DNA of 64,000 bases, taken from a virus. This document shows, piece by piece, positions 22,312 to 53,941 of the stretch. How positions within the stretch are numbered: the stretch's first letter is position 1; each line of letters begins with the position of its first letter. The stretch is taken from IMG/VR virus record IMGVR_UViG_3300031707_000001, positions 62,001 through 126,000 of that record. One strand, given 5' to 3'. The notes beneath the pieces are model-generated. The model was not told the origin of the DNA. It saw only the letters and a list, made by a program, of their open reading frames with translations, and searched no databases. The position numbers and the translations under genes are program-made.

Positions 22312-24295
22312 TTCACAAAGTCTATTTCCTTTTCCATATGAAGCTCCATCGGGTAGTCGCTCAGGGGCAAACAAATACCCCGATCCCTTTTGCGACATTG
22401 CCAGCACGTACGTTCCCCGGGACCTGAACATCATCTTTGAATGGATGGAGTATTTGTATCTGACCATGGGTACCTTCCGCACGGCCGCTCGCCGTGTAGT
22501 CCGCTATTTCCTTACCGAGATAGTTCTGGAAGGAGAATCAGATGCAGAACGTGATAAGTACGAAAAGTTCCTTCACGACGACTTAAACCTCATGAACAGT
22601 CTTGCCAATATTGGCGACGACTACATGGTTTATGGCAACGTATTTGTATCCATTTACTTTCCCTTTGATCGTTGGCTGATCTGTCCGCATTGCGGCATGG
22701 AATACCACTGCAAGACAGTAGACTACAAGTTCAACCTGGCCGACGGCAAGTTCAGCGGTAACTGTATCAAGTGTCACAAGGAACAGGTAGAATTCAAGCG
22801 TGAGGATCGCCGCTCACCCGATCGCAGCCGTGTACGTATCATTCGTTGGAACCCAAAGTTTATGCGTCTGCGTCATCATCCGATCAGCGGCAAGATCGAC
22901 TACTTCCTGGAAATGGAGCCGCTGTTCGTCAACCGCTTGCGTGCCGGCGAGAAGTTCTACATCGACGAGACACCGTGGTCCATGATCGAAGCCTGTCGCA
23001 CCAGCGCCAAGGATGCAGGCCGTGTACTGTTCAAGTTCCGAGACGATGCCATATTCCACTTCCGTGATGCTACCCTGTCTGGTATGGCGCCTACAGGCCC
23101 TCGTGGATGGGCTATTCCGCCTATGATGCCCAACTTCCGCTTGGCCTACTACATTCAATTGTTGCGCCGGTACGATGAAGCTATTGCATTGGACTTCATC
23201 ATGCCGTTCCGTGTGATCTACCCTGATCTGAACAAGGACAAGCAGGGAAGCGATCCGCTATCACTTATGAGCATGGGCAACTTCATTGGCCACATGACTC
23301 AGATGATCGAGAACAAGCGGCGCAACATTACGGATATTCAGATTGCGCCGTTTCCTATTGGCTACCAGATGTTGGGCGGCGAAGCCAAGGAGTTGGCGCC
23401 CAAGGATAGCATTGCCCAGGCTATTGACGAGCTTCTTAATGCCATGGGTTTCCCGGCTGAACTGTACCGGGGCAGCTTGTCCATACAGGCATTTCCAGTT
23501 GCGCTTCGACTGTTTGAAAAGAGCTGGGGCGCACTGGTGGATGGCATGAACGACTTCGTACGGTGGCTGCTTGAGCGTTTGTCCAGACACTTCATGTGGG
23601 GTCCGGTCACCGGGGAACTGCGCAGCGTAACGCTGGCAGATGACATTGAACGTAAGGCATTGGCTTTGCAGGCAGCAGCAGGAATGGATATCTCCAAGGC
23701 CACGGCTTACCGTCCGTTGGGTATCGACTATCTGGAAGAGCAGCGGCGTGTGGTCGAAGAGCAGGAAGAGATCATGAAGCTCCAGCAGGAAGCTATGGAG
23801 CGTCAACAGGCATCGCAGGGAGCGCCTCCAGGCGGTGGTGGCGGTGGACAGCCAGACCAAAGCGGTGGTGGTGGTGCTACTACGCAGCCTGGTGCAACTC
23901 CTGGCGACGTATACGAGCAGGGCAAGGCATTGGCACAGCAGCTATTGCTGCAGACTCCGCCTACAGCCCGTCGTGGCCAGTTGGTACAGATCAAGCATAC
24001 AAACCCAACGCTGCATGCTATCGTGTTGCAGGAGATGAACAACATGCGTCAGCAGTTTGCTTCCCAAGGACAGCAGGCCATGATGCAGCAAGCCGGTGCC
24101 AAGATGGCATCAGCCATAGACAAGCAGCTTGACAAGGTGCCTAGCCCATTCCTGATTGGCATATTGATTAGTGATCAGATATGCGATTATACCCGTAAGG
24201 ATTTGTCGAAGATAGCCATGGACGTAAAATATGGGGTGCCGTATGCCAAGGAAGCATTCCACTTCATATTCGAAAAAGTGAGAGGGCTGACGTGA
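22304..24295 (+). CDS. Portal protein (putative) with a zinc-ribbon insert
   Basis: 663 residues. The opening DIASTYVPRDLNIIFEWMEY, the alpha/beta middle with YFLEMEPLFVNRL, and PIGYQMLGGEAKELAPKDSI followed by AMGFPAELYRGSL fit phage portals: a wing, a stem and a clip with long helices, then a Gln/Gly-rich C-terminus. A four-Cys zinc ribbon (CPHCGMEYHC and CIKCHKE, residues about 126-170) is inserted in the first third, which is unusual. Size and place at the head of the morphogenesis genes agree. Portals form the 12-subunit DNA entry ring. Confidence 0.75.
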   Translation: MGDSQSLFPFPYEAPSGSRSGANKYPDPFCDIASTYVPRDLNIIFEWMEYLYLTMGTFRTAARRVVRYFLTEIVLEGESDAERDKYEKFLHDDLNLMNSLANIGDDYMVYGNVFVSIYFPFDRWLICPHCGMEYHCKTVDYKFNLADGKFSGNCIKCHKEQVEFKREDRRSPDRSRVRIIRWNPKFMRLRHHPISGKIDYFLEMEPLFVNRLRAGEKFYIDETPWSMIEACRTSAKDAGRVLFKFRDDAIFHFRDATLSGMAPTGPRGWAIPPMMPNFRLAYYIQLLRRYDEAIALDFIMPFRVIYPDLNKDKQGSDPLSLMSMGNFIGHMTQMIENKRRNITDIQIAPFPIGYQMLGGEAKELAPKDSIAQAIDELLNAMGFPAELYRGSLSIQAFPVALRLFEKSWGALVDGMNDFVRWLLERLSRHFMWGPVTGELRSVTLADDIERKALALQAAAGMDISKATAYRPLGIDYLEEQRRVVEEQEEIMKLQQEAMERQQASQGAPPGGGGGGQPDQSGGGGATTQPGATPGDVYEQGKALAQQLLLQTPPTARRGQLVQIKHTNPTLHAIVLQEMNNMRQQFASQGQQAMMQQAGAKMASAIDKQLDKVPSPFLIGILISDQICDYTRKDLSKIAMDVKYGVPYAKEAFHFIFEKVRGLT

Positions 24296-25002
24296 ACAAA
24301 ATAGCAAGTTTTCGTTTAGATGCAGATTCTGCCTTGGTAAAGCTGTTAGACCAATTTTCGGCGAATCGGGCAGCGGCAAAAGCAAAGTCTGTCTATGACA
24401 ATGTAATGAAAGCTAAGGCTGTTCAAGACGCTGCAAGACAAGCTAAGGCCATTGAATCATCAGCAAAATCTAGAGTTGCAATGATAGCTCGGGCTATTCG
24501 AGAGGCCAACGAAAAGCTTCATCCTCAGGGAAATATCGGTTCTCAGGAATTAACTAAAGCGGTACCTGCAGTGCTTCCTTCAGAGAGTTTAGAAAAAGAG
24601 CGTATTGCTGCATTGCGTCGGGCTTATGCTGCCAAGACTCCAAGGAAGGAATTCAAACCTATTCCGACAACGTATCCGGTGAATCATGTTGTGGATACTT
24701 TCAAGCATATTGTAGGTACGCCACCGACTCCCACCGTACAGTTACCACCGGGAAAGAAGCCGCCGTTGGGTGATCTGCAAAGTTTGTTGATTACACCTAA
24801 GCAGGGAAGTGTAACACCTTACGAACAAGGTTTCATTACTAAAACGGCTGCGCTTCCACCTGAGGTTCGCTCAAGGCTGATGGTTTGGTTGCGTAAGATG
24901 TTTGGAATGGATAATACATCGCAGGCGCCCGGGGCTACACCTTTGGGATTGCCTGACGTTTCATCCGGATACGATCGTGTGTCGGCTATGCCTGTAAAAT
25001 AA
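24292..25002 (+). CDS. Probable virion protein with a GFI motif
   Basis: 236 residues from GTG 24292, overlapping the portal stop. It is Ala/Lys-rich and helical at the start (ANRAAAKAKSVYDNVMKAKA). Near residue 180 it has YEQGFITKTAALPPEV, one form of the motif shared by proteins of this block. Function unknown. Confidence 0.55.
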   Translation: MNKIASFRLDADSALVKLLDQFSANRAAAKAKSVYDNVMKAKAVQDAARQAKAIESSAKSRVAMIARAIREANEKLHPQGNIGSQELTKAVPAVLPSESLEKERIAALRRAYAAKTPRKEFKPIPTTYPVNHVVDTFKHIVGTPPTPTVQLPPGKKPPLGDLQSLLITPKQGSVTPYEQGFITKTAALPPEVRSRLMVWLRKMFGMDNTSQAPGATPLGLPDVSSGYDRVSAMPVK

Positions 25003-25012
25003 GGAGCTTACC

Positions 25013-27327: not shown

Positions 27328-27397
27328 ACTATGTATCAAGTTACCGTTAAAAGAGTAGTATATTTCTGTTGACTAGTAAAGATAAAAGGGCGTAGTT

Positions 27398-27787
27398 ATG
27401 CTACCGAACATGACAAACGAGGAAGCTTATATGCAGGGATTCAACCATCGGTGTGGTGGAATGGGCGTCGATCCACGTAAACTCCTGGCCAAGTACGGAG
27501 CCCTGGCGCCGATCGGAGATCCGGCACAGCAGCAGATAAGTGGAAATTCGTCGTTGTTGGCAGCCGGAGGTATTTCGAATGCCACACAGGAAGCTATGAA
27601 GCCCGAGCTGTTGAAGAAGCAGTTGCCTGAAATATATCCCCAAGTCAAGATGCCCAAGATTGCCGACCACATCGAGAAACTGAAGAGAGACAGGCTTCTC
27701 AAGGACAGAAAGCCGGAGAGTCAAACTCCTGCAAATTCTATTGCACGTAAATCAATTGGAATGGCCGCAGGGCCCTATGGAACGTAA
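27398..27787 (+). CDS. Head-block protein with GFN/GVDP motif
   Basis: 129 residues. EEAYMQGFNHRCGGMGVDPR at residues 7-26 is a clear copy of the recurrent motif. The rest is low in hydrophobic residues and probably extended. Function unknown. Confidence 0.55.
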   Translation: MLPNMTNEEAYMQGFNHRCGGMGVDPRKLLAKYGALAPIGDPAQQQISGNSSLLAAGGISNATQEAMKPELLKKQLPEIYPQVKMPKIADHIEKLKRDRLLKDRKPESQTPANSIARKSIGMAAGPYGT

Positions 27788-27796
27788 GGAGATACC

Positions 27797-28309
27797 ATGA
27801 TCAAGTTAGCACAGTTGGAAGCTGCGTTGTCGAAGGTTAAGGGCGAAGTTAAAATCAAGAAGAGTTCAGCCAACTCTTTTTACCTGCAAGGTTTCATCCA
27901 GAAGTGTGCTGAAGCAGGTATGGATGCGGGACAGATCAAGCAGGCACTCGTTGACAAATTGATTAATGCGGGCCGACAGGTGGGAAAATATTTTGGTGGT
28001 TTGAAACATCAGTTTCGAGCAGGCAGGGATTATAACAAACTTTGGGGTAAAGATACTTGGGGAAAACAAGGTCCTTTCCGACCAAAAGATTTACCGGATG
28101 TAGCATACGGAGCTGGACACAAATATGACCAAATGCTTCAGAGTCCTGTCGGACAAGCTGTTGGATCAGCAGCCCACGGAGTCAGAGAAAATATGTCCCC
28201 ACTGATCCAATGGATAAAGCAGCATCCTATCTATGCTGGAGGTGTTGGTGTAGGTACCGCTGGAGCCGGCGCTGGACTACAAGCAGGTATTGGTGAAATG
28301 GGGGAATAA
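27797..28309 (+). CDS. Head-block protein with GFI motif and C-terminal glycine zipper
   Basis: 170 residues. FYLQGFIQKCAEAGMDAGQI near residue 27 is the motif. The end (GGVGVGTAGAGAGLQAG) is a glycine-zipper helix. It may be one of several internal proteins. The stop overlaps the next start. Confidence 0.55.
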   Translation: MIKLAQLEAALSKVKGEVKIKKSSANSFYLQGFIQKCAEAGMDAGQIKQALVDKLINAGRQVGKYFGGLKHQFRAGRDYNKLWGKDTWGKQGPFRPKDLPDVAYGAGHKYDQMLQSPVGQAVGSAAHGVRENMSPLIQWIKQHPIYAGGVGVGTAGAGAGLQAGIGEMGE

Positions 28310-29634
28310 TGCCTCAGCCACCATCATATAGGAAAGCAGACGAACCCGGTAAGAACTGTGGTACGTGTAAGTACTTCTATCGGTTGGCCAACAATTGCCG
28401 CCGGTACAACTCTAAAGCGTTTGCCAGCATGGTATGCAGGACTTGGAAAGCAGGAATGCAGAAAGGTGCAGAGATGAAAGAATACTTTGAGACGTTGAGC
28501 AATACTGATCTTTCTTTCCAGGAAGGCTTCATTAAGGAATGCGTTGAGCGTGGAGTAGACCCGGAAGAGATGCTGAAAGTTGCACAGTTTTCTATAACAC
28601 CATCTCCAGGTTGGACGACACCCGTTGGTTCAAATCGAGGTGCTTTAGCTAATGCAGGAAGTGCATGGACAGCTCCTGGCCGAGCTTTAGGCCGTGGATT
28701 TCAAAGAATGAATCCACTCGGTTCGATGCGTTCTCAAGCAGCCGTTTATAACCAACCTATGCCTGGAGCAGGCTTTTCACAAGCAGCGGGATCAACAGCT
28801 GCAGGAACCAGTTCAGCTGATTTAAGAGGTATTCGGCGTAACGTTCAAGCAGGGAAGGCATCTCAGCTGGAACGTGGAATGTATTCTAATGTTCAACGTC
28901 AGGCTCCCGCAGTACCCGGCAAAGCAGCGCCAGCTCCAATTAACCCAACTAATCCACGAGGGGGTATGACTGCTCCAACTGCTGTTGCAGCAAAATCTTT
29001 GTCGCCTACAGCCATACCTGCACCAGCCGTGGCAAAGACGCCAGCTCCAGTTGTTGCTCCAACGCCAGCTGCAGTACCTACGGCACAAGCAGCGCCGGCA
29101 CAGCGAACTACAGGCGTATTCCAAGGTAATACTCCGTGGAGTCCTGGCCAATCGTTTACTCCGAAAAATTTGGGTACATCGCCAGCAGGTGGCGGCTACG
29201 CATATGGTACACGCCCAACTGCTGCACCGATGGCTGCACCACAACAACCTACCCAAACTCCTGCCGTTGCACAAGCAGCACAGCCAAAGCCAGGTCTGAC
29301 GTACCCGGCCGGCCATCTGGTCAATCAAGGAAAGAGTTTTCGTAAGCTGAGTCAGACCCTTGACGTAGACTATCTACGTAAGACGGCCGAGAAGCTTTGG
29401 GGAAAGAAAGCACAGGCTATTGATCCTATAAGAAATGGTGTATACGCAAACCCAAAGGCTATGGCAGTGTGGGGACAAGTGCCTCCGCAGGAACAGCAAA
29501 TGCAAAGCGCAAAGATGCCCGTAGAAGGAAAGCCCAATATGGTCGGTAGCGGAACAGCACCCGCACAGCAATTCAAAGCACAGCTTGCACAGGCAGGACA
29601 GAAGCCTACGCAACTTGACACCCCAACGTACTAA
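28309..29634 (+). CDS. Head-block protein: Cys cluster, GFI motif and Pro/Ala/Gln-rich rod
   Basis: 441 residues. CGTCKYFYRLANNCRRY with a later VCRTW (residues about 13-45) is a four-Cys cluster. LSFQEGFIKECVERGVDPEE near residue 66 is the recurrent motif. The remainder (residues about 110-440) is dominated by Ala, Pro, Gln and Thr and is probably extended or disordered. It may be an internal or fibre-like virion part. The function is not recognised. Confidence 0.55.
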   Translation: MPQPPSYRKADEPGKNCGTCKYFYRLANNCRRYNSKAFASMVCRTWKAGMQKGAEMKEYFETLSNTDLSFQEGFIKECVERGVDPEEMLKVAQFSITPSPGWTTPVGSNRGALANAGSAWTAPGRALGRGFQRMNPLGSMRSQAAVYNQPMPGAGFSQAAGSTAAGTSSADLRGIRRNVQAGKASQLERGMYSNVQRQAPAVPGKAAPAPINPTNPRGGMTAPTAVAAKSLSPTAIPAPAVAKTPAPVVAPTPAAVPTAQAAPAQRTTGVFQGNTPWSPGQSFTPKNLGTSPAGGGYAYGTRPTAAPMAAPQQPTQTPAVAQAAQPKPGLTYPAGHLVNQGKSFRKLSQTLDVDYLRKTAEKLWGKKAQAIDPIRNGVYANPKAMAVWGQVPPQEQQMQSAKMPVEGKPNMVGSGTAPAQQFKAQLAQAGQKPTQLDTPTY

Positions 29635-29643
29635 GGAGACAGC

Positions 29644-30294
29644 ATGAAATTTGATAAGATGACAACTCGACAGTTGGACTACGTGGAAGGCTTCATTAAG
29701 AAGTGTGTTGCGCTGGGGGTGGACCCGGAAGTTGCAATAAAGAGTGCTGCTACCCCATACGATATCCCGGGTATGCCATGGGCAAACAATATGAGTGGCT
29801 CGTCTTCTTTGGAGACGGCACCAACATTTTCACAACAGCTGGGAAGAGGTTGGGGAAACGCAATGTCTTCATTGGGTAAAAGAATGGCCAAGCCGGATGT
29901 AAGCGGAAGCGTTGAAGGTTCTGGATGGGATCCACGTACCTGGGGAAGACGTTTGGGAAGAGGAATGTATAATTTATCCGAAGAGGGACGATTCCTGGAA
30001 GGTGCCAGAAATCCCACAGAACAGAAGAGCATGTTCAACATTGCTGGGCAGCAGGGTGCTGAATCTGGAACCCGGGCCGTAAGACAGATGTCAGATCTGG
30101 CAAGACGCCAGAAGGAATACGAGAGAACCACGGGCGGATTGTCCGGCCGTCAGTTCGTAAAAGGATCGCCCTATGCTCTTGGCCAGCCCAAGGCGCAATA
30201 TGGTGGCAAATTGCAACAGTACGAACCGCCAAAGAGAGTTGAACCGCCCAAGCTGCCATCCAAGCGTACGCCTGGGGCGCCTGTAGCGTTTTAA
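29644..30294 (+). CDS. Head-block protein with GFI/GVDPE motif
   Basis: 216 residues after AAGGAG. LDYVEGFIKKCVALGVDPEV at residues 10-29 is the best match to the motif consensus. The rest is Gly/Arg-rich and polar. Function unknown. Confidence 0.55.
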   Translation: MKFDKMTTRQLDYVEGFIKKCVALGVDPEVAIKSAATPYDIPGMPWANNMSGSSSLETAPTFSQQLGRGWGNAMSSLGKRMAKPDVSGSVEGSGWDPRTWGRRLGRGMYNLSEEGRFLEGARNPTEQKSMFNIAGQQGAESGTRAVRQMSDLARRQKEYERTTGGLSGRQFVKGSPYALGQPKAQYGGKLQQYEPPKRVEPPKLPSKRTPGAPVAF

Positions 30295-30308
30295 CCAAGG
30301 AGACACAA

Positions 30309-30827
30309 ATGAAGTTAGCAGAAATGAGCAATATGGACCTGGCCTACATCGAAGGATTCATTGAGAAGTGTGCTGCACACAAAGTGGATCCAGAACTGTT
30401 CTTGGAAGCATTGATGAGAAAATCGGCACAGGTTGAAGTACAGAAGCCTATGCCTGGTGGATCAGATACAGGACCCGCACAGTCTCCAGCCAAAGATCCG
30501 TCTACATACGTGCCATCTAACAAAGGTATTGGACGGAAAGTCAGCAAAGTTATAACGCTTCCCAAGTTGGGCGCCGCCGAGGAAGACGGACCTGATTATG
30601 AAGGTAGACGTCGGAAGACAATCGTAGGACTTGGTGCCGGACTTGGTGCAATTCCGGGAGGAATGGCGGGTGCTGCAGCAGGCGGCCGTCATCCTGGAAC
30701 TGGCGCACTTGTAGGTGCTGGAGTCGGAGCAGGATTGGGCGGAGGTGCAGCAATGATCTACAACGCAATCCGGAACTCTCTTGGATTCAGTGCTATGGGT
30801 ATGCCAGTCACAGAACAGAAGAAGTAA
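30309..30827 (+). CDS. Head-block protein with GFI motif and glycine zippers
   Basis: 172 residues after AAGGAG. LAYIEGFIEKCAAHKVDPEL at residues 11-30 is the motif. Two glycine-zipper segments lie in the C-terminal half (GLGAGLGAIPGGMAGAAAGG and VGAGVGAGLGGGAA), which could span a membrane. The layout, a tag-like N-terminus plus membrane-active tail, suits an ejected protein. Confidence 0.55.
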   Translation: MKLAEMSNMDLAYIEGFIEKCAAHKVDPELFLEALMRKSAQVEVQKPMPGGSDTGPAQSPAKDPSTYVPSNKGIGRKVSKVITLPKLGAAEEDGPDYEGRRRKTIVGLGAGLGAIPGGMAGAAAGGRHPGTGALVGAGVGAGLGGGAAMIYNAIRNSLGFSAMGMPVTEQKK

Positions 30828-30829
30828 CT

Positions 30830-31174: not shown

Positions 31175-31197
31175 TTCCGAACACGAAGAGGTGAACC

Positions 31198-32992: not shown

Positions 32993-33001
32993 GGAGGATC
33001 C

Positions 33002-36000
33002 ATGCCTCAGCTTCCGGAAAATCTCCGTGAGTTCGACGATACGGATAAGACCAGGGAACTCATTTACTCCAACGTAATGGATTCGCTGCAGAAGCGTTTT
33101 CCTATTGAGGACAACGAGTATCGTTTGGAACTATCCGGCCTGAAGTATTCTGGTCCTCAGCACTTTTCCCTTGACCAACAGAAACAAGCCCTGATGAAGG
33201 ATCGGCACTTGCACACTCCGATTACAGGGAAGTGGCGCTTGATGGACAAGGCCAACAATGCTGTACTTGGCGAGAAGGAAGACGTTGTAATGAACGTCCC
33301 GTACTACACGCCACGGGGAACATTCATCTTCAATGGCAACGAGTACAGTACAGTCAATCAGTCCCGTTTGAAGCCTGGTGCCTATACTCGTAAGCGTAAG
33401 ACGGGCGAAGTGGAAACGCAATTCAACGTACGGCCTGGGACCGGCCGGCCGTTCCATTTGCGTCTGGAACCAGAAACGGGTATCTTCCGCATCAGCGTTG
33501 AACAATCGAACATTCCTCTCTATACCCTGTTGAATACACTGGGCGTATCTGATAAGGAACTCATGCAGGCATGGGGTCCAGAGATGCTTGAAGCCAATAT
33601 CAAGAAGCAAGATAAGCGGGCCCTTCCAAAGATGTACGAACGTTTTTCGGGGTATAAGTACGATCCCAATGCCCGGGAAGACCAGATGAAGCAGTACATC
33701 AACGAGGCTTTGGCAAAGTTTGAATTGGACCCGGACGTCATGGCTCGTACGCTTGGCATTCGTGACACGAAGAACGTTACGCCACAGGCTCTTATTAGAG
33801 CCACGCAGAAGATGTTGAATGTATCCAAAGGCACAGAGGAGCCAGACGATCGTGATGCTCCAATGTACAGCAACATCTACAGCGTTGAAGATTTACTTCA
33901 GGAGCGCATAGACAAGGATGCCGGAAGACTGGCCAAGACATTACTGTATAAAGCACGTCGTACAAAGAACTTAGACCATGTACGTCGTGGGGCACTAGAT
34001 CCATACATCATGGGACAGAACGGGTTCCTTCTGGCCTCTCGATTGACAATGCCGTTGGAAGAAACCAATCCGCTGCATACGCTGGAGCAATCCGCCCGCA
34101 TTACCAAGTTGGGACAGGGCGGTATAAGCTCTGCCGAATCCATTACTGATGCAGCCCGGGACGTGAACAATGGGCAGTTTGGATTCGTTGACCCGATCAC
34201 TGGACCAGAGCACATCAACGTGGGTATTGACGTGCGTGCCGCTTACAAGAGTTTCAAGGGCAAAGACAAACAGATCTATGGGGAGTTCAGACATCCTGGA
34301 AGCGGAAAGATGTTCTACCTAAGACCTGAAGACGTAGCAGACAAAGCCGTGGCGTTTCCTGGCGAAATGAAGAAGCCAGGAGATACGGCTGTCGTTATGC
34401 AAAACGGGAAAATCAAACGAGTTGCGAAGCCAGAGGTTGACTTTGAGGTTCCATCCTTTGGTCACATGATGTCTTCGCATACGAACATGAATCCTATGCC
34501 AACAGCCGTCCTTCCTGGTCGGCAATTCTATGGCGCAAAATTCTGGAGTCAGTATCTGCCTATGGTAGACGGGGAAACCCCGTTGGTGGATTCTTTAACG
34601 CCAGAAGGCAAACAGACATTCGGTGAATACTACGGACGTAAGGTAGGAGCGCTGAATTCGAAGGTTGCGGGAACTGTAGCGAAAATCACAGATAACAGCA
34701 TTACCGTTGTTGGTGATGATGGTCAAAAACACGTTACTGAATTGGTGAAGGACTTCCCGTTTAACCGACTGACCGGGATCAGTTATTTCCCGGCCGTGAA
34801 GCCTGGAGACAGGGTGAATGTAGGTGATATGGTAGCTCACTCCAACTTCACGGACTCCAAGACGGGAGGGATTAACATGGGCCGCAACCTGAAGACCCTG
34901 ATGATGCCGGCCCGAGGTATGTCTTACGAAGATGCATATGTTATCAGCGAATCGGCCTCAAAGAAAATGACAACGGAGCGACTATATGGATTCGACCAGG
35001 AAAGCAGACAGGGCGTCGATATTGGAAAGAACAAGTTCATTTCAACCTTTGCCCAGAAATTCACCAAGGACCAGGTGTCCAACATTGACGACGAAGGCGT
35101 GGTCAAGCCCGGCACCGTTGTCAGCAAGGGCGATCCTCTCATCCTCGCTGTTGGACCTAAACTCCTTACCTCCGCCGACGCACAACTGGGCAAGCTGCAT
35201 AAAGTGCTGCGAAACGCCTTTACCGACAAATCCGTGATATGGGAATCCAACTATCCTGGTACAGTTACAGATGTGGCTATGACCGGGCATGGTGCCCGTG
35301 TGAACGTAAAGAGCATTCCGCCCGTTCAAGTCGGCGACAAGTTGTCCACACGGTTTGGACTGAAGGGTGTGGTTGGCCGTATTCTACCGGACGATCAGAT
35401 GCCCCGGGATCTGGTAACCAATGACCCCTATGATATGCTGCTCAATCCTATGGGCGTGCTGTCCCGTGTGGCGCCAAATCAGATCATTGAAATGAATCTG
35501 GCCAAGATTGCCAAGAAGACCGGCCAGCCTATTCGTTTACCCCAGGAGCCTCCTCCAGAAGGTTGGGCTGCTTGGGCCAAGAAGCAAATGGATGCAGCTG
35601 GCATCAAGGAAGACAATGACATCTTCGATCCAGTTACGGGAAAGACCATTAAGGGCGTATCAGATGGGTTTGTGTATACAGCGGCATTCCACCACTTGGC
35701 GGAAAAGAAGCTGTCTGCCCGTGGAGAGTCGGGTGCCTATACAATCGACGAACAGCCAGCCAAGGGTGGATTCGAAGGCGCCAAGCGATTCAGCCAGATG
35801 GACGTGAATGCTACGCTGGCACACGGTGCGCCCGAAGTCATTCGGGACGTACAGTTGATTCGTGGTACCAAGAATGAAGAGTTCTGGAAGGCCCTGAAGT
35901 TGGGCCGGCCACTACCCGAACCAACAGTTCCTTTTATCTATGACAAGTTCCTCAATACGCTTCGAGCAGGTGGCGTCAACGTGCAGGAAAAGGGGGACAT

Positions 36001-37394: not shown

Positions 37395-37610
37395 ATGACG
37401 GTAAAGCAAGCATACTTGTGTGGGTTTATTGAGAAACTGGCTGCTCCCCTGCTTGGCCTGGGATCATCTGATCCCCGGTTGATAAAGCAGATTGCAGATC
37501 AGCTACGTACGCTTATGCGAACCAACCCGATTGTTCCTCGTCCGGCATTACATCCAGCATACGCACAATTGGAGAACAAATACAGACCCGTCAAACTTTC
37601 GGACAGGTAA
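37395..37610 (+). CDS. Small protein with GFIEK motif, between the polymerase halves
   Basis: 71 residues, starting two bases after the polymerase stop. AYLCGFIEKLAAPLLGLGSS at residues 6-25 is a variant of the recurrent motif. The rest is Arg/Pro-rich. Its presence here suggests that the polymerase genes belong to the same virion module. Confidence 0.55.
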   Translation: MTVKQAYLCGFIEKLAAPLLGLGSSDPRLIKQIADQLRTLMRTNPIVPRPALHPAYAQLENKYRPVKLSDR

Positions 37611-39205: not shown

Positions 39206-39215
39206 GGTAATACTT

Positions 39216-39746
39216 ATGGACAACCCACAATTGGGATTTACCCAAAGGCTCGATGTTGAATTGAAATCTTGTAGTATGCCATCGCACGATCCTCGAAGAG
39301 GTTCAACGGAAGAATTGATTCGTGACATGCATAGGATCCTCACAGGCAACGGAGACTTCAACCACGGTTTGATCTTCAAGGTGGCGTCTGCCAATACCAA
39401 CCTGGGAATGCTACAGGAAAGTGTAAATGGTATGTCAACCAAACTAGATGGTCAGATTACAAAATGTCTGGCGATACAGAATGCCCACGCACTTGAGGCG
39501 GCAGAGAGGACGACAGTAGCCAAGGTAGGAAGAGCCATATGGGAAAACAAGTCCTTGATTTTTGTGATTGTTCTTGGAGCTTTAGTATACTGGGGAACTA
39601 TTACCAAACAGGCAGCGGCGGGCATTGGAGAAGAAAAGCTGGCGAAGTTGGTTGATGCTCGAATAGAGAAAATTCTTCCCGGCGGCACTTCGTTATTGCC
39701 ATCCAAACAGCAACCCAATCCAACCAAACAAATCAAGACACCTTGA
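39216..39746 (+). CDS. Helical protein with one transmembrane segment
   Basis: 176 residues from ATG 39216 after GAGGTAATACTT. A long helix-rich region is followed by SLIFVIVLGALVYWGTI (residues about 116-132) and a polar tail. It is a type of small membrane-anchored coil often seen in phage virion modules. Its stop overlaps the start of the beta-prime C-terminal gene. Confidence 0.55.
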   Translation: MDNPQLGFTQRLDVELKSCSMPSHDPRRGSTEELIRDMHRILTGNGDFNHGLIFKVASANTNLGMLQESVNGMSTKLDGQITKCLAIQNAHALEAAERTTVAKVGRAIWENKSLIFVIVLGALVYWGTITKQAAAGIGEEKLAKLVDARIEKILPGGTSLLPSKQQPNPTKQIKTP

Positions 39747-41602: not shown

Positions 41603-41605
41603 TGC

Positions 41606-41635
41606 TTGCAAATGGCTAGAAGCTTATGATATAAA
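41606..41635 (+). promoter_or_regulatory. Candidate promoter
   Basis: TTGCAA (41606-41611), an 18-bp spacer and TATAAA (41630-41635) lie just after the polymerase stop and 45 bases before the next start. Confidence 0.4.
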
Positions 41636-41679
41636 TAGAGTTGGCATATAGCTTGGATCAGAACAAGGAGCACCGTAAC

Positions 41680-44025
41680 ATGTCAAAGTTTACTTCGTTG
41701 CTAGCGAATCTGCCCGTCGGACTTACCAAGAACGCCGATATTGAAAGTCCAGATGAGGTACAACTGGAACAAGATTTTGCACGTCTGGCCTATACATTCC
41801 TCAAGGACCGGGCTGCAGGTTTGATTCCATATCTGTTGGGATTTGAAGTCGTCGAACGTGAAGAGGACGGATCGAAGGCCGTAGGAATGTTTGGTTTCAA
41901 GATCGGTAAGGACTATTACTACGTGCCGGCTTTCTTCGTGAACAACCAGATCAAAGGCATGGATCTGCTATTTTCGAAGAGCACTAATATGTTCGTGCCG
42001 CTTCGTGAGCCGTGGATCAACCACATCATCAATCGGCAGACCATTCAGTTGGGCGGACCTATTTCTGAGCCAGAGCCTCTTCTTCGCCGGCAGTTTGAGC
42101 GTCCCCGTTTCGACTTCCTGGCCACACCACCTACGTTTCCTACAGGTATTCCAAAGGCATCAGAAGTCAAGTCAGCTGAAGCTATCCAAGCTGGGTTCAG
42201 TGCTTGGAATGACTTGCAGCAAGCTATTATAGATTCCGTCGAAAAAGATGCCGAGTTTCAGAAGGCGTGGGCAGGTGCTATTGCTCGTCTGGAGGGCACA
42301 CCGCTACCGTTCGAAAAGACGGCCGAAGGAAGCCGGTTGATCGATTGGATTGAAAAGAAGGGTGGAGTAAAAGCCGTCAACGTATTGTTCAAGACGATCA
42401 CAGAGAATCCAGGATTTGCCAAAGCAGCGTTGACGTTCTATCCCAATATTGAATCCTTGTTCGTAACGAAGTTTGCTGCTGAACTGGCGCCAGTGAAACA
42501 AGCTGCGAAGATTACAGTGATCACTGAAAAGACTGATTGGGTAGACGGTAAGGAAAAGAAACGCTTGGTGCGGGACGGGTTTACTATCCACGATACACGG
42601 GAACCTTCGGAGAAGTCCGAGACCTACGAGGTGGATTATGTCAAACGCTTCACAGCTCCAGATAAACCGGGTTTGTACAACGTGCTGCTACGTAACGGTG
42701 GGACGACACAGGCTTGGGTCTTCATGCCCTCTGCAGCGGCAAAGAACAAGTATTTGCTCGTTGTCGATACCGACGCCAAGAACTACTTCATGGCCGAACC
42801 CGGAGCACTATTTGTCCGAGATTCAGACATTATCGAAGGTCCCAATGCTTACTCAAAGGCCATAGATTTGTCTGATATGAAGATTGGGCACAAGTACATT
42901 ATGATCAATGCCCACGGGGAAGCATCTGTGCCAGTTGAAATCCGAAGCATCGTTGCTGAAGACGGTAAACGCATAAAGATGCACGTATACCATTTGAGTG
43001 GACCAAAGTATGAACGCCCAACTTACGGGCACGACTTCTCCACGCTGAAGACACACAGCAATATGGAACTGCAGAACGGGCCTGGCATTTGTGATCGGGA
43101 CTACATCCAGTTGGCTGACTATGAAGGCCGCAACTTGGCACAGGCTGGCCGTGATACAATCATTGTTCCAAGCAATTGGAAAGCATTGGAGATTCAGCCG
43201 GGCAACAAGGACATGGAAAGTTATGAGGCCAAGAACGTACAGGAAGACATGTTCCAGCCTGGCTCACAAACTGACGTAATGGATGCTTTGGCAAAGAACG
43301 CCTTCCACAAGGTTACGGTTGGATCCGATGACAAACTAGAGTATTACATCCAGATGGACGATAGCTTCGTGGACGGTAAGCCCATGAACTATAAGACAGC
43401 CATGGTTCGACTCGTATCCAAGTATGGCCTGGGTGTGGATGATTCAGAAACCATGCTCAAGGAAGCCAAGGATAACTTCAAGTCCAAGCGTCTCGTCAAG
43501 TTTGCACAGAGCCCAATGGTTGGTGTATACATGCCTCCAGAACAGCCTGTGACATATGGAATAGACGAGTTCAGTGGCGTAACAGAACAGCCGGCGCAGA
43601 ATCAGTTTATGCATGGCCAGATGACCGGCGTAGTTCCTCCACAGAACACAATGCGTCCTGGGTTCAACATTGGTGGTGAAACAGCCATGGACCTACAGGC
43701 AGCAGGGTTAGGCCAGGAAGCCGCAGGCGCCGGGCAGAAACAAGTATTCGACCACTCTACAATCGGGGGGCTGTCCAAGGTCTACGATTCCGGTGCAGTG
43801 ATTGATTCCTATGTTCCGGAACTGATGAAGTCCTTGGACCGTTTGGGACGTATCCTGTTCTTGTTCTATTGGAAGAACGAAGAGTTTACAGAACGCTATG
43901 GCAACGAAGACATGGCGGAAATGGAAGATACCATTCGGGGCGTGTTCAAGAGCTTTGGCGACCTGGTACTGCAGCTTCGTGAGAAGACCATTGGTTCCGA
44001 GGAATCAACGAACACGATCATATAA
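41680..44025 (+). CDS. Large structural protein of unknown role
   Basis: 781 residues from ATG 41680 after AAGGAG (41665-41670). The first 120 residues read as a globular domain (AGLIPYLLGFEVVEREEDGS). The middle is beta-rich with several HxYHLSGPKYERP-like strands, and the C-terminal 120 residues are helical (SYVPELMKSLDRLGRILFLF). Length and place between polymerase and capsid genes suggest a virion protein. The stop overlaps the next start by one base. Confidence 0.6.
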   Translation: MSKFTSLLANLPVGLTKNADIESPDEVQLEQDFARLAYTFLKDRAAGLIPYLLGFEVVEREEDGSKAVGMFGFKIGKDYYYVPAFFVNNQIKGMDLLFSKSTNMFVPLREPWINHIINRQTIQLGGPISEPEPLLRRQFERPRFDFLATPPTFPTGIPKASEVKSAEAIQAGFSAWNDLQQAIIDSVEKDAEFQKAWAGAIARLEGTPLPFEKTAEGSRLIDWIEKKGGVKAVNVLFKTITENPGFAKAALTFYPNIESLFVTKFAAELAPVKQAAKITVITEKTDWVDGKEKKRLVRDGFTIHDTREPSEKSETYEVDYVKRFTAPDKPGLYNVLLRNGGTTQAWVFMPSAAAKNKYLLVVDTDAKNYFMAEPGALFVRDSDIIEGPNAYSKAIDLSDMKIGHKYIMINAHGEASVPVEIRSIVAEDGKRIKMHVYHLSGPKYERPTYGHDFSTLKTHSNMELQNGPGICDRDYIQLADYEGRNLAQAGRDTIIVPSNWKALEIQPGNKDMESYEAKNVQEDMFQPGSQTDVMDALAKNAFHKVTVGSDDKLEYYIQMDDSFVDGKPMNYKTAMVRLVSKYGLGVDDSETMLKEAKDNFKSKRLVKFAQSPMVGVYMPPEQPVTYGIDEFSGVTEQPAQNQFMHGQMTGVVPPQNTMRPGFNIGGETAMDLQAAGLGQEAAGAGQKQVFDHSTIGGLSKVYDSGAVIDSYVPELMKSLDRLGRILFLFYWKNEEFTERYGNEDMAEMEDTIRGVFKSFGDLVLQLREKTIGSEESTNTII

Positions 44026-45014: not shown

Positions 45015-45025
45015 GGAGCAAACTC

Positions 45026-46851: not shown

Positions 46852-47762
46852 TGAAAGAAAAATCTGCTCAAGACTTCATGGAATCTATGCGCCGTGGCGT
46901 ATCGCAGGTTCCTGGTATGGCTTCCCAGGCTGGCGGGGCCATAAAGGATTGGTACAAGAATTTGAATCCAGATGCCCGCAATGCTGTCATGCGTGGTTTG
47001 ATGGGTGCTGGCATTGGTGCGGGGGTGACAGGCGGACTTTCTGCTTTGTCCCCACACGATCCCGAAGAAAAACGGCCTATAATGGGCCCGGCATTGATAG
47101 GTGCTTTGATGGGCGGCGGCGCCGCAGCCGGCATACCTTATGGCTTGAAACTACTGGCCAATAAGGCGCAGTTGCCTGGGGAAGAAAGCCGTCCGCTTGG
47201 GGCAAACATACTCGAAAAAGCAACAGGGCCTATTTTTACCCATCCTGCAACAACAGCCGGAGCCGCACTCGGAGGTGGAGCTCTTTATGCAGCCGGAAGA
47301 AAAGTCAAAGGTGAAAAACCAGGAACATACGTTCAGAGTGAATTGGGAAGAACGTGGGAATCAACTAAGGCACCTGTTGTTTCCAAACCTTCAATAGTCG
47401 AGTTGGCAAATAAGCTTAAGACTATGTATCACGGGGAAAAGGGGGAATTGGAAACTATGTGGGAATTGGCTTCTCGTTCCCCATCCGAATTGTTATCGTT
47501 GACTGTGCACGAAGATCCTACAATAAGAAATGTTGCCAAAACTATACTGTCGAATAAGGCTAAGCAATTGGCAAATCCTCAGACCTATACATCAGCGGCT
47601 AGGAAAGCACCCGGACAAATAACTCGGGGAGCGTTGGATTTGACTCGACGAATTAGGGATACCTGGAGGGCTAAGCCCGCAGGTAGAGCGTCCATGTTGG
47701 CGATTCCTGGAGGTATGGCCGCAGGAGCACTTCTGGATAGATATCTCAAAGGAGAATACTAA
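46851..47762 (+). CDS. Glycine-zipper membrane-type virion-block protein
   Basis: 303 residues, start overlapping the previous stop by one base. There are three Gly/Ala hydrophobic segments: GLMGAGIGAGVTGGLSAL near residue 45, ALIGALMGGGAAAGIPYG near 82, and AGAALGGGALYAAG near 137. The C-terminal half is basic and helical. It resembles the proteins at 25449 and 31556 in style rather than sequence. Confidence 0.55.
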   Translation: MKEKSAQDFMESMRRGVSQVPGMASQAGGAIKDWYKNLNPDARNAVMRGLMGAGIGAGVTGGLSALSPHDPEEKRPIMGPALIGALMGGGAAAGIPYGLKLLANKAQLPGEESRPLGANILEKATGPIFTHPATTAGAALGGGALYAAGRKVKGEKPGTYVQSELGRTWESTKAPVVSKPSIVELANKLKTMYHGEKGELETMWELASRSPSELLSLTVHEDPTIRNVAKTILSNKAKQLANPQTYTSAARKAPGQITRGALDLTRRIRDTWRAKPAGRASMLAIPGGMAAGALLDRYLKGEY

Positions 47763-49183
47763 TGATTAAGTTGATTTACTCATCGGCGTTTGACACAACC
47801 GTGGACGTTGGTATGCGGTTGATTGAGGATCCTAGACAACTTAGCAAGTCTGCTTCAACAGTGTTTGATTGTGACTATGATACGATAAAGCCCGATAAGG
47901 ATCACCTGGGGATTCATTTGGTGGCCTTGGGTGACTTCGAGCACTATGGTATCAATCGCAATGGGGACGGATTCCCGAAAGCAGCATGCGCTAAGTATCA
48001 CGATACGTTTGTAAAGAATGGCGCTCTTTTCCGTCATCACCGCAATAAGGATCGTGAAGCCCGTTTGGGACAAGTCGTAAAGTCAGCTTACAATGAGCCA
48101 ATGGGACGCATCGAATTGTTCATTCATGCACATAAGGAAAAGGCTCGTGATGAATTGCAGAAGCTGGCGACTGAGGGTGATATCCCATTCAGCATGGCTT
48201 GCAAAGTAGCTTTTGATCGGTGTACAGTATGTAACACACTTCGGAAATCCTCAAAAGATCCAGATCAGTGCGAACACGTACTCATGAATTTAGGTAAGGT
48301 GGCCGACGACGGCAAAGTGACTGGCACCCAAAACGATGAACCTAACTTCTTTGACATCAGTTTCGTAACACGGCCGGCTGACCGGATTGCGTGGCATCTA
48401 AAGGCCGCATCCAACGAGATCATTGATTCAGTAAAACTGGCAGAAGCAGAAGGAATCTGGGTGCCAGATCACCTCGTCATTGTATCCCCGGAAGCACAGG
48501 ACAAGTTGGAACTGTTGAAGAAGTTGGCTGAGGAAGAACTCCACTATAAAGGCAGGGTTTGTGGTTGGATTGGTGCCACTGCCCGTCAACGCTACGATTG
48601 GGAGCTTCGAAAGGCAGCATCAACTCCAATGGATGACAAGTTGATTGAGGAATTACGTAAGCATGAACCCAAAGACGTCTTTTACAAATTGGCGTCAAAG
48701 GGCATCATCATGGATGTACGTTCTTTCTTTAAGTATGCCATGGGTTTGGATTTTGGTGATATCGCCGGATATGTGGATCAGGTACAGAAGCGAGCAGGAG
48801 GCGTATATACCCGAATGGTTGAATCCGGCCGTTGTCAGGAAGCATGCAACGATCGATTATTCGATGTTGATGTTTCTACCGGCGGTAACGACGTGCCGTC
48901 TATTACGACCAAAATAGCAGAGGAACTTACATTAGTTGGTCCTTGTATGGAACAACGCATTATCGAAACAACGATTAAGTATGGTGAAGAATTCAAACCA
49001 CAGATAGTGGTTGACACGAAACACGAAATAGAGTCTAATGATACTTTGACGGTAGATGCATTGGCTGAAAAATATGCTGCCTACAAATTGGCAGCCATTC
49101 AGGCCGTGCGAGCTATCAATAAGAATACTGATACGGATGCGCTGATTGCGATTGCGGCAGCGCAGAACTTGTTCACTAACTAA
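47762..49183 (+). CDS. Putative prohead maturation protease
   Basis: 473 residues. INRNGDGFPKAAC near residue 61, FRHHRNKD near 85 and PFSMACKVAF near 142 give the NxNGDxF, His and Ser landmarks of phage prohead proteases, followed by FFDISFVTRPAD. The long C-terminal part (residues about 220-473) may serve as an internal assembly domain. The gene lies directly before the scaffold-like and capsid genes, as expected. CTVCN and CEHVL form an unusual Cys pair set in the protease domain. Confidence 0.65.
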   Translation: MIKLIYSSAFDTTVDVGMRLIEDPRQLSKSASTVFDCDYDTIKPDKDHLGIHLVALGDFEHYGINRNGDGFPKAACAKYHDTFVKNGALFRHHRNKDREARLGQVVKSAYNEPMGRIELFIHAHKEKARDELQKLATEGDIPFSMACKVAFDRCTVCNTLRKSSKDPDQCEHVLMNLGKVADDGKVTGTQNDEPNFFDISFVTRPADRIAWHLKAASNEIIDSVKLAEAEGIWVPDHLVIVSPEAQDKLELLKKLAEEELHYKGRVCGWIGATARQRYDWELRKAASTPMDDKLIEELRKHEPKDVFYKLASKGIIMDVRSFFKYAMGLDFGDIAGYVDQVQKRAGGVYTRMVESGRCQEACNDRLFDVDVSTGGNDVPSITTKIAEELTLVGPCMEQRIIETTIKYGEEFKPQIVVDTKHEIESNDTLTVDALAEKYAAYKLAAIQAVRAINKNTDTDALIAIAAAQNLFTN

Positions 49184-49196
49184 CGGAGATAGATCC

Positions 49197-50645
49197 ATGT
49201 CAACAATGCAGGAAATTCTCGCTTCTACACGTAAACTTATCGAAGTCAAGAAAGCAGAGTTCAATAGTACTCTGAAGAAGGCTGACGATAAGGCACTGAA
49301 CAACACAGGGGCGGGCGATGATAGCCCAATCACTCGTGGTCATGCGTTGGATGCTACGCAGTCAGCGCTTGAACCTACAAAGAAGCCCTTGATTACTTCT
49401 GATGCTATGACAGCACAGCCTCCTTCGGACGGTAAAGGCACAAAGGCTGATCTGAAGGGCAAGAACGAAGGCAACGTGACAGACCGTGCTGACAAGTTGG
49501 AAGCCGGCGATGCCGTTCTGGAGCCTAAGAAAGAGCCCTTGATTACATCAGATGCAAAGGCCGATCCCGAAGCAGGAGCCTCGGGTCAGACAGCAAAGCA
49601 AGCCACAGCAAAGTTGGCCAATGAGATCCTGAAGGACATTCGGGAATATCAGCAGAAGCAAGCTGCGCCGAAGGCTAAGCAGGACGTGAAAGCGGATGCA
49701 AAAGTAGCTTCGACGAAGAAAGCTGATCCAGATCCGGACCCCGATCCAGATCCCGATCCAGATCCGGACCCTGATCCCGATCCAGATCCGGACCCTGATC
49801 CAGGCAAGGGAAAGAAAGGCAAGAAGGTTGTAAAAGAGGAAGATAAGAAGGAAGCTTCTGGTCCTCAGCTTGAGTTGACAACTGACGTGTTGGCCAAGAT
49901 TGCCTCGATCGTACTTTCTTCTGAAGAAGGTGCACAGTTTGTGGAAGGCCAGCTTGCCAAGGCAGCCGGTGCAGAAGCTGCACAGGAGACTTTGGCTTTT
50001 TTGGCAGAACAGTCCGAACTGGCTGAAAAACAGGCTGCTTTCGAGCAGGGTCAGGCGGACGCCGAAGCATTGATTCAGCAAGCGCTGTATCAGGCCGGTC
50101 GGGAAGCGGGCCAAAAAGAAGCAGCGGCAGCTCAACAGAATAAGTTGATGGCGGGTCTGGGACAGAAAGTTGCCCAGGCAGGCATCGATGAAATGATGGG
50201 CGCTGGTGCTGCTCCTATGGAAGGTGGCGCTGGTGGAGCCGGCGGACCGGATGTTGGCGCCGCAGAACTAGCTGGTGGAGCTGGTGGAGCTGGTGGCGTT
50301 GGTGGAGCCGGCGAAGCTGGTGGGGAAATCACAGAAGAAGATCTGATGATGGCTCTTCAAGCATTGGTGCAGGAAGGCACAATTCAGCCCGAGGAAGCTC
50401 AGGCGGTTGTGGAGGCCTTGACGGGCGGCGGAGCGGGTGGTGAAGCGGCAGGAGCAGCTCCTGCAGCAGCCCCTGAGGCAGCTCCTGCGGAAGCACCAGC
50501 TGCAGTAGGTGGTGCAGAACACGAGGCATCTGAAACTCCTGAAAAGGAAAAGAAAGAAGAGAAGGAATCTTCTGAAAAGTCAGTTGAGAAGAAAGCCGCT
50601 GCTCTTCTGGATGCCATCCGTCAGGTCCGTGCAAGTCGTAAGTAA
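49197..50645 (+). CDS. Scaffold-like acidic protein with Asp-Pro repeat
   Basis: 482 residues from ATG 49197 after GGAGAT. EPTKKPLITSDA near residue 60 and EPKKEPLITSDA near 108 are an internal duplication. Around residue 178 about 14 Asp-Pro dipeptides follow one another, coded by GATCCAGATCC-like hexamers (49728-49803). Ala/Gln/Glu helices and a Gly/Ala region follow. Composition and place between protease and capsid genes fit a head scaffold. The Asp-Pro rod is unusual, and Asp-Pro bonds are acid-labile. Confidence 0.6.
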   Translation: MSTMQEILASTRKLIEVKKAEFNSTLKKADDKALNNTGAGDDSPITRGHALDATQSALEPTKKPLITSDAMTAQPPSDGKGTKADLKGKNEGNVTDRADKLEAGDAVLEPKKEPLITSDAKADPEAGASGQTAKQATAKLANEILKDIREYQQKQAAPKAKQDVKADAKVASTKKADPDPDPDPDPDPDPDPDPDPDPDPDPGKGKKGKKVVKEEDKKEASGPQLELTTDVLAKIASIVLSSEEGAQFVEGQLAKAAGAEAAQETLAFLAEQSELAEKQAAFEQGQADAEALIQQALYQAGREAGQKEAAAAQQNKLMAGLGQKVAQAGIDEMMGAGAAPMEGGAGGAGGPDVGAAELAGGAGGAGGVGGAGEAGGEITEEDLMMALQALVQEGTIQPEEAQAVVEALTGGGAGGEAAGAAPAAAPEAAPAEAPAAVGGAEHEASETPEKEKKEEKESSEKSVEKKAAALLDAIRQVRASRK

Positions 50646-50677
50646 TTGATAGGTCCTACTTAAAGGAGGGCCTAGCT

Positions 50678-51049: not shown

Positions 51050-51067
51050 CAACTAAGGAGCAAAACC

Positions 51068-51598: not shown

Positions 51599-51622
51599 GC
51601 CTCTAAAAGGAGTATAGATACA

Positions 51623-52576
51623 ATGGATACACAGAATGTACCAGTATCAGTCATCAATGCGAGAATCCTGGAGCACCTGGATCGTGATGAGGTAAAGAAG
51701 GCTCAGGACGCTGCTACGGATTACACCCGTATGCAAGTCCGTGAAGAGTCTTTTGCCTTCAAGATTCTTCCGCCTGAAAAGGCGACAGACGACATGCTCG
51801 ATAGAGATATCGACGAACGTCTGCGTATCATCTGGGAAAAAGAACCAGACAACCCACCTTCTAAGTGGGTGCCTCTGCAAACGATTCCGGACGGTGAATA
51901 TATCACGGGAAGCCGTTATATCATTCCGTTCGCTCGTGTTCTGACTCCCAAGTTCGTAAAGGACATCGATGAGTTGCGTACTTATCGGTTGGACATCCGC
52001 AAGATTCTGACCGACAACTCGATCAAGGACGCTTTGGCCGAGATCGACAGCAAGTTCATCGCCACGGTCAACTCGATCGTACGGAATACGATGAGTGGTG
52101 GAGCTGGATCGCCTCAGAAAGAGACGAAAAAGGTCCAGTGGATCGACGTGACGGATCCGTTGAATCGTCAGTCCTTTGCGGAAGCAAAGAAAATGCTGCC
52201 TCGTGGCAACGCTAACGGCAAGTACCGTCTGCGCAACTACATCGCTCTGATGAACGATGTAACCGCACAGGACTGGCTGAAGCTTGACAGGTTGGCAGTC
52301 GGCGGTGATCTGGCCCAGGACTTCTTCAAGAACGGTCTGACAACAGATACGTTCTTCGGCGTGAAGGCAATCTTCACGATCAAGGATAACCTGGTTCCAG
52401 ATAACTACGTGTACTTCTTCGCAGCACCGGAATTTCTGGGCAAGTGCTTCTACTTGACAGACTGGACGATGTTCATGAAGAAGGAAGCGTATTTCATCGA
52501 AATGTTCAGCTACTGGCTGGGCGGATTTGCATTCGGTAACATCGCAGGATGTGCCCTTTGCCGGTTCAATCAGTAA
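51623..52576 (+). CDS. Major capsid protein (putative)
   Basis: 317 residues after AAAGGAG. A helical N-terminus (ILEHLDRDEVKKAQDAATDY), a central region with FAFKILPPEKATDDML, and KWVPLQTIPDGEYITGSRYI suggest an HK97-like N-arm and body. Order after protease and scaffold, good ribosome site and a strong terminator right after it support the call. There is no obvious cleavage site at the N-terminus. Confidence 0.7.
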   Translation: MDTQNVPVSVINARILEHLDRDEVKKAQDAATDYTRMQVREESFAFKILPPEKATDDMLDRDIDERLRIIWEKEPDNPPSKWVPLQTIPDGEYITGSRYIIPFARVLTPKFVKDIDELRTYRLDIRKILTDNSIKDALAEIDSKFIATVNSIVRNTMSGGAGSPQKETKKVQWIDVTDPLNRQSFAEAKKMLPRGNANGKYRLRNYIALMNDVTAQDWLKLDRLAVGGDLAQDFFKNGLTTDTFFGVKAIFTIKDNLVPDNYVYFFAAPEFLGKCFYLTDWTMFMKKEAYFIEMFSYWLGGFAFGNIAGCALCRFNQ

Positions 52577-52595
52577 GTACTGGATTCGGTGAAGT

Positions 52596-53306: not shown

Positions 53307-53323
53307 GATAGGAGATTACCAGT

Positions 53324-53941
53324 ATGCCACTAACAAGTAAAGGTAAAAAGATACTTTCTGCTATGGAGCGCCCGGAATCTGAGGGCGGCTATGGTACTAA
53401 GAAGGGTAAGGAAGTATTCTACGCTTCGCAGAACAAGGGCACCATCGAAGGTACGCACAAGACCAGTGAAGTACACAGCCCACAATGGCTTGAAGGATTT
53501 ACCAAAGCCGCCAACGATTTAGGTCTGACAGATCCGGATCAGGTTGTAGCACTATTGAAGACAGCACAGCGTTTGCACTTCATGCATACGCATCCTGATG
53601 CTTTTGACGCCGGCTATACAGCTGAGATGACAAAGAAGGGAATGAACAAAGAAGCCGGTCCTTGGGGTGCTATGAAGACTTTGGGTCTTTTGGGCGCCGG
53701 CGCAGCGGGCATGGTGGGAGCACAGGCCGCAGGACGTAACATGGGCATACGGCCATTCAATCGTCAGCTTTGGACAGTCGAAGATTTTCAAAATGCTGCA
53801 AAAGAATATCAGGACATTGCCGGCCGAGTACGTCCGCATACGAGTCCGTTTGGAATGATGGGGCAGCAGGGTATGTACGGTGGCCCGAATCGCATGGGTT
53901 ATTTCTCTCCGACCGGCGGCTACTACACCAGTCCATACTAA
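53324..53941 (+). CDS. Virion-block protein with GTKKGKEVFYASQNKG-type N-terminus and GFT motif
   Basis: 205 residues after AGGAG. YGTKKGKEVFYASQNKGTI near residue 23 is a short module that I know from many phage proteins. SPQWLEGFTKAANDLGLTDP near residue 50 is a form of the recurrent GFI motif. GLLGAGAAGMVGAQAAG near residue 122 is a glycine zipper. It ends in Gly/Tyr-rich sequence. Function unknown. Confidence 0.6.
   Translation: MPLTSKGKKILSAMERPESEGGYGTKKGKEVFYASQNKGTIEGTHKTSEVHSPQWLEGFTKAANDLGLTDPDQVVALLKTAQRLHFMHTHPDAFDAGYTAEMTKKGMNKEAGPWGAMKTLGLLGAGAAGMVGAQAAGRNMGIRPFNRQLWTVEDFQNAAKEYQDIAGRVRPHTSPFGMMGQQGMYGGPNRMGYFSPTGGYYTSPY

Follow-up and report, generated by a model that had tools for sequence, protein, structure and literature searches.

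A portable tag, predicted to be a hairpin, on otherwise unrelated proteins of a phage structural block, a candidate signal for loading the head

Why should five consecutive phage genes encode proteins that resemble one another in one short stretch and are otherwise unrelated? The question arises in a window of 64,000 bases, positions 62001-126000 of a 210,732-base IMG/VR phage record (IMGVR_UViG_3300031707_000001, here G000), in which the products of the genes at 27398-30827 share a module of about 30 residues, Y-x2-G-F-x2-K-C-A-E-x-G-V-D-P (genes are named by their first position in the window). The original prediction had read a recurrent GFIxKCxxxGVDPE motif in this region as a docking or packaging tag, for example for the capsid. 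Docking on a common partner in virion assembly, a role that we infer from comparisons of sequence, is well supported and in our view much more likely than no function at all. As to the destination, we favour a tag that loads internal or ejected proteins into the capsid, with a probability of roughly 0.58.

The five genes named as main carriers hold up in profile searches. A first profile, made from window sequences, found in the record these five, 53324 and, weakly, 37395. A later profile (A4) was built against circularity from 31 tags, all from other genomes; over the full record it returned the same five genes (E-values from 4.0e-9 to 1.5e-5) and a partial match in the product of 24292 (E = 0.0016), with nothing beyond those six at E≤10. 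Among the five, the exact form GFIxKCxxxGVDPE is found in 29644 only. The 28309 product has a Cys-rich stretch N-terminal of its tag, and the C-terminal half of the 30309 product is Gly-zipper-like, with a weak match to Gly-zipper_YMGG (E = 0.1).

The looser forms that had been listed with these five fared unevenly. The gene at 24292 stays as a borderline member on its partial match, and 53324 as a loose one: missed across the whole record by A4 and by the final profile (A6), it belongs to a positional family with relatives behind the major capsid protein (MCP) gene in the related genomes G002 and G008, and also in G001 and G016. The 37395 product is doubtful, being matched by profiles A1, A2 and A3 only, of which A2 contained it as a row, and missed by A4 and A6 across the whole record. 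Two candidates fall away: 20197 lies at noise level in profile searches (2.5 to 4.8 bits), and 45026 is matched by no profile, its resemblance being a separate conserved domain common to gp220 of Salmonella phage Arash.

Controls were clean. Six-frame translations of 15 genomes or records, covering part of the sequence only for most of them, gave 40 forward domains of at least 12 bits, against none in reversed proteins (best 4.9 bits) and none in shuffled ones (best 8.8 bits). The invariance of columns in A6 is partly a selection effect, as its tags had been picked by a regular expression that fixes several such positions; the A6 profile searches, including a held-out search described below, are free of this restriction. 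One chance-like match to the regular expression (L009, minus strand) was dropped from the set. Written as a DNA pattern, the strict motif occurs in one viral contig and the looser Y..GF..KCAE.G in 15 stretches of seven viral contigs, mostly several per contig, with no occurrence of the reversed pattern in viral contigs. A Y-E form gave five stretches, all within contigs already known, and an Ala form gave three in three contigs, two being proteins of G014 and G015 and the third (L084, 4.7 bits) looking like chance. The Cys form does not occur in genome_contigs, where 84,980 bacterial and archaeal species are represented by a single genome each, and tblastn with one tagged N-terminus found no match among named phages. 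Nor was a description of the motif among the results listed in full-text searches of open-licence PubMed Central (PMC) papers on capsid targeting in jumbo and T-even phages and on internal and ejection proteins.

The bodies behind the tag are unrelated, as had been claimed. We compared 42 tagged proteins from nine genomes, a set that includes the borderline 24292, 37395 and 53324 with the orthologues of 53324, and leaves out the proteins of G016 and G019. At filtered settings, 388 of the 861 pairs match when the tag is present and 3 when 35 residues are masked, these three forming a single trio of LysM proteins. Permissive settings give 384 matching pairs with the tag and 30 without; the additional pairs appear only with composition filters off, and some reflect loose kinship, such as that of 53324 with its G008 orthologue. 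Among the 42 proteins, Pfam recognizes LysM three times and DUF3008 and a SHOCT-like domain once each.

The position near the N-terminus was likewise borne out: the Tyr of the tag lies at most 15 residues from the chosen start in 31 of the 42 proteins and at most 30 in 34, counts that are approximate because start codons were chosen by a simple rule. The proteins are mostly small (median 183 residues) and mostly basic, with an isoelectric point above 8 in 37 of 42, compared with 9 of 30 other open reading frames (ORFs) of the window's structural block (p = 7e-7) and 25 of 40 ORFs at 1-20000 of the window, a set that contains spurious ORFs (p = 0.0097).

Tagged genes are concentrated where virion genes lie. 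Through homology to Arash and profile matches we delimited a structural block running from the portal gene to a tail sheath-like gene (Table 1). The enrichment that the prediction implied is seen in the record, as described, and in relatives: of the 34 tagged genes in G000, G002, G008, G011 and G012, 32 fall within or next to this block, whose limits were set by homologues of window genes and which crosses contig ends in G002. They recur at a few places, namely behind the portal gene, before the RNA polymerase beta-type subunit gene (RNAPbeta), around the second polymerase gene, behind the homologue of 41641 and behind the MCP gene, so that the same conserved neighbours recur next to tagged genes whose bodies are unrelated. 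The place behind the 41641 homologue is tagged in seven of the nine genomes in which it was seen (G002, G008, G011, G012, G014, G016 and G019), the tagged gene of G016 being the second behind that homologue; G000 and G001 have none there.

Table 1. Tagged genes and block landmarks in the window. E-values are those of profile A4 over the whole record unless stated otherwise; the last column but one gives the residue number of the G of GF.
Feature	Coordinates	Strand	Product (aa)	Tag codons	Tag sequence	G of GF	Basis or remark
Portal protein	22304..24295	+					homologue of Arash gp204, annotated portal
Borderline member behind portal	24292..25002	+		24813-24848	VTPYEQGFITKTA		first-helix-only form near C-terminus; E 0.0016
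Tagged gene 1	27398..27787	+	129	27410-27511	YMQGFNHRCGGMGVDPR	14	E 1.5e-5
Tagged gene 2	27797..28309	+	170	27863-27964	YLQGFIQKCAEAGMDAG	32	E 1.2e-5
Tagged gene 3	28309..29634	+	441	28498-28599	FQEGFIKECVERGVDPE	73	E 1.9e-7
Tagged gene 4	29644..30294	+	216	29662-29763	YVEGFIKKCVALGVDPE	16	E 5.1e-9
Tagged gene 5	30309..30827	+	172	30327-30428	YIEGFIEKCAAHKVDPE	16	E 4.0e-9
RNA polymerase beta-type subunit	33002..37393	+					PHROGs and Arash gp206
Doubtful member behind RNAPbeta	37395..37610	+	71		MTVKQAYLCGFIEKLA		at N-terminus; A1 E 0.04; A4 6.4 bits
Second RNA polymerase subunit	39743..41602	+					PHROGs and Arash gp216
Conserved structural gene	41641..44025	+					homologous to Arash gp218
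Probable prohead (head maturation) protease	47762..49183	+					PHROG matches of orthologues
Probable scaffold	49146..50645	+					assigned by place between protease-like gene and MCP, and by composition
Major capsid protein	51623..52576	+					homologue of Arash gp226, annotated major capsid protein
Loose member behind MCP	53324..53941	+		53468-53569			WLEGFxKAAxxxGLTDPDQV form
Tail sheath-like protein	55955..59893	+					PHROG tail sheath, E 4.5e-8; taken as block end

The protease assignment is probable. Two of five orthologues match the PHROG 'head maturation protease' (E = 2e-5 at best), a match not shown for the protein encoded in the window; the protease-like protein was modelled at a predicted local distance difference test score (pLDDT) of 50 and has no meaningful sequence match in the PDB. 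Several other features of the locus deserve mention. Directly upstream of 27398 and 53324 lie two minus-strand genes (26578-27339 and 52596-53306, respectively) that resemble each other and have many Cys pairs, one of them with a weak Pfam match to HNH endonucleases (E = 0.0026), and both are possible homing endonucleases. The polymerase appears to be unusually split: along 33002-37393, a match to one PHROG is followed by a match to the N-terminal part of phrog_25354 (142-539), whose later part (644-1102) is matched by 39743-41602. The portal gene of G008 (L080 704-3823) contains an intein-like insert (Pfam Intein_splicing, E = 1.7e-6), and the 1,799-residue RNAPbeta ORF of G002 (L010 9974-15373) has an insert that by eye resembles another intein. 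An exact 73-base duplication (10266-10338 and 44408-44480) gives 24 identical residues (YEKIFFNVRDKDGRLHESSFIRMN) in the products of a small ORF (10099-10482) and of a conserved structural gene (44025-45014). Outside the block, 8220-8687, 12478-13026, 13385-13861 and 13816-14343 form a paralogous family with 24-46% identity, and the 8220-8687 product has no Pfam match.

At E≤0.01, A6 matched 10 of the 16 records searched: six times in G000, two in G001, three in G002, ten in G008 (nine genes, as one stretch is present at both contig ends), four in G010, ten in G011, six in G012, one in G013, two in G014 and one in G015. Portal, polymerase or other block genes are shared with the window by G002, G008, G011 and G012; with G010 the window has a single small block gene in common and with G013 just a non-structural one, and the phage of G009 is nearly the same as that of the window. 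Judged by such genes, tag-bearing contigs belong to the window's clade wherever this could be checked, and the tag is a signature of that clade. In G013, the tag of L121 2030-2722 comes after a fused N-terminal domain with matches to PHROGs of unknown function (residues 1-76, E = 5e-17); we take this protein to be the one with the DUF3008 match.

A search with the capsid protein supplied the held-out records, finding six loci, four of them in records previously unseen. In these, the tag profile matched seven times in G016, seven in G017, apparently the same phage as G016, and six in G019, with no match in the 42-kb fragment G018; the tag is thus present in two of three distinct genomes found by the capsid gene alone.

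The tags of one genome resemble one another more than those of other genomes. Among 49 tags from nine genomes, limited to domains of at least 16 bits, BLOSUM-normalised similarity is 0.43 within genomes and 0.28 between them, a difference reached in none of 2,000 label permutations, and identity is 0.45 compared with 0.33. These dialects are strongest in G019 (0.68 versus 0.28), where an Ala form, AFAAGFCKAAEAMGVDPAAL, recurs. One receptor that fits all tags of a phage and changes between phages would give such dialects. The invariant Gly of the tag is encoded by all four Gly codons, which argues that selection acts on the protein.

The original prediction had envisaged a shared short helix. 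One shared module it is, predicted to be a helix-turn-helix hairpin of about 30 residues and not a single helix: given 36 tags, AlphaFold placed helices at residues 8-24 and 28-36 of a 40-residue segment (residues 1-40 of 29644) with a mean pLDDT of 90.5. Conservation on one face of the helices was not significant (p = 0.17). A TALE-repeat match through 'CQAHGLTPEQVV' in a PDB profile search was taken as a chance likeness of helix-turn-helix, because each repeat contributes about 3 bits and the score is summed over repeats.

What, then, would the tag do? Taken together, the portable module, the unrelated bodies, the location among head genes and the dialects that differ between phages suggest docking on a shared partner in virion assembly, and a docking or packaging tag fits best with unrelated bodies, block location, N-terminal placement, recurring positions and dialects. 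In the mechanism that we propose, a varying group of accessory virion proteins, small and for the most part basic, would carry a hairpin tag, usually N-terminal; a single receptor belonging to the growing prohead (core, scaffold, portal or capsid protein) would bind the tag's conserved face and bring the tagged proteins inside before DNA packaging, and upon infection they would be ejected together with the DNA. That the destination is the head interior, with a receptor in the prohead and cargo that is internal and ejected, is the inferred part of this proposal, in keeping with tagged genes that adjoin head genes such as portal and MCP.

Several observations weigh against loading into the head. 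Core genes are present without the tag in the more distant Arash, D181, G003, G005, G006 and G007, in which A6 finds no match and an all-against-all comparison of the available stretches finds no comparable shared N-terminal motif; the tag is thus dispensable for this head type. G001 has two matches only, one of them weak, and two of the 34 tagged genes are found away from the block, at 80.9 kb in G008 and at 49.3 kb in G011. Some tags are internal or C-terminal. Behind the tag there is no consistent site for the prohead protease: [ASLI]xE occurs within 50 residues in some proteins at inconsistent places, a pattern that may not be the cleavage rule of this clade. Gly-zipper patterns are about as frequent in tagged proteins (17 of 42) as in untagged block ORFs (12 of 30) and so do not separate the two. 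Furthermore, the dialect is absent in G016 (0.31 versus 0.32) and slight in G000 (0.37 versus 0.34), and recent duplication or gene conversion could also yield dialects.

A clue to the docking partner comes from G014, and from the same protein in G015, in which the probable scaffold, encoded between the protease-like and MCP genes, ends in the tag; proteins at the same position in G000, G002, G008, G016 and G019 do not. The tag might be a scaffold-type hairpin that binds coat or core and is carried by many cargo proteins, which would then gain entry to the prohead through mimicry of the scaffold, each phage having its own lock-and-key dialect. We regard this as possible but unlikely; if it were true, the tags would be a natural cargo-loading code readable from sequence alone.

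Another candidate destination for tagged accessory proteins is a different virion part: tail, neck, baseplate or the exterior of the head. Location in the structural block fits this equally, and there is a precedent in Klebsiella phage RaK2, for which it is proposed that N-terminal regions shared by unrelated tail spikes bind the baseplate (PMC3622015). Yet the tagged genes of the main genomes adjoin portal, polymerase and MCP genes rather than genes behind the sheath, and the cargo is basic, so that fastening to such a part appears unlikely.

Of similarly low probability is descent without a shared docking role, by which tandem duplication and gene conversion would have spread the tag as an N-terminal domain of paralogues, and likeness within a genome would reflect recent common descent. 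It draws on the five tandem copies in the window, on the DNA of 29644 and 30309, which is 66% identical over 90 nt of the tag region, and on the HNH-like genes just upstream of 27398 and 53324, which could promote gene conversion. Tags have been kept, however, and bodies have not; they sit at different protein ends, their codons vary, and they persist in genomes with a polymerase that shares 51-68% identity with that of the window. Conservation across divergent bodies, protein ends, genomes and codons indicates that selection keeps the module. Shared repeated DNA as a source of the likeness was rejected, since the codons differ.

Binding to the phage RNA polymerase, with tagged proteins as its partners or carried into the head with it, would suit the tagged genes that flank both polymerase genes in G000, G002, G008, G011, G012 and G016. 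It is improbable, given that other tagged genes lie behind MCP and the 41641 homologue and that these polymerase genes are also present in Arash and D181, where the tag is absent. Least probable is a localisation signal in the infected cell, for instance into a phage nucleus, which the jumbo-sized genome of 210,732 bases and its own multi-subunit polymerase might suggest: restriction to the structural block ill suits a general import signal. A search for the phiKZ nuclear shell protein matched nothing in G000, G002, G008, G011 or G019, but it also missed SPN3US, which we take to have a distant homologue, and so weighs little.

If the tag does load the head, the head contents of an uncultured phage clade become predictable from sequence, and every tagged gene would encode cargo that reaches the host as infection begins, a stage at which one expects early functions in anti-defence and host takeover. 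Genome dialects offer a route to the receptor through co-variation, and a short, probably portable tag can be tested for loading proteins into phage particles.

Known systems place the tag in context. SHOCT domains are described as very short, two-helical and attached to many unrelated proteins (PMC3581485); they differ in being predominantly C-terminal and widespread in bacteria. A SHOCT-like model matches a single protein of the 42 (E = 1.6e-5); since the remaining 41 give no such match, it probably lies outside the tag, and the tag does not belong to Pfam SHOCT. SPN3US and phiKZ, giant phages with a virion RNA polymerase, have head proteins with long propeptides that are proposed to target ejection proteins into the prohead (PMC5694885, PMC10052503). 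These propeptides are mostly 111-254 residues long, have no single shared tag and are cut at AxE, and the tag profile has no sequence match in either phage.

Closer parallels come from T4 and P1, from whose signals the tag is, by sequence comparison, different. The capsid targeting sequence (CTS) of the T4 internal proteins and Alt is described as short, usually N-terminal, 10-20 residues long, removed by gp21 and said to bring proteins to the prohead core (PMC5694885, PMC7411985). The tag is likewise short, mostly near the N-terminus and carried by several proteins with unrelated bodies; it differs in its length of about 30 residues, its predicted hairpin, its sometimes internal or C-terminal place, the apparent lack of a cleavage site and its larger number of carriers per genome. 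A6, which recovers its own members elsewhere, has no match in T4 (NC_000866) at E≤10 and none in P1 (NC_005856). In P1, the N-terminal 30 residues of DarB suffice to direct a reporter to the capsid, and a role for folding is suggested, according to an account that reports no consensus among Dar proteins (PMC9024508). The tag agrees with the DarB signal in length and differs in being one consensus common to many proteins; if it does load the head, it would be a further type of head-loading signal alongside those of T4 and P1.

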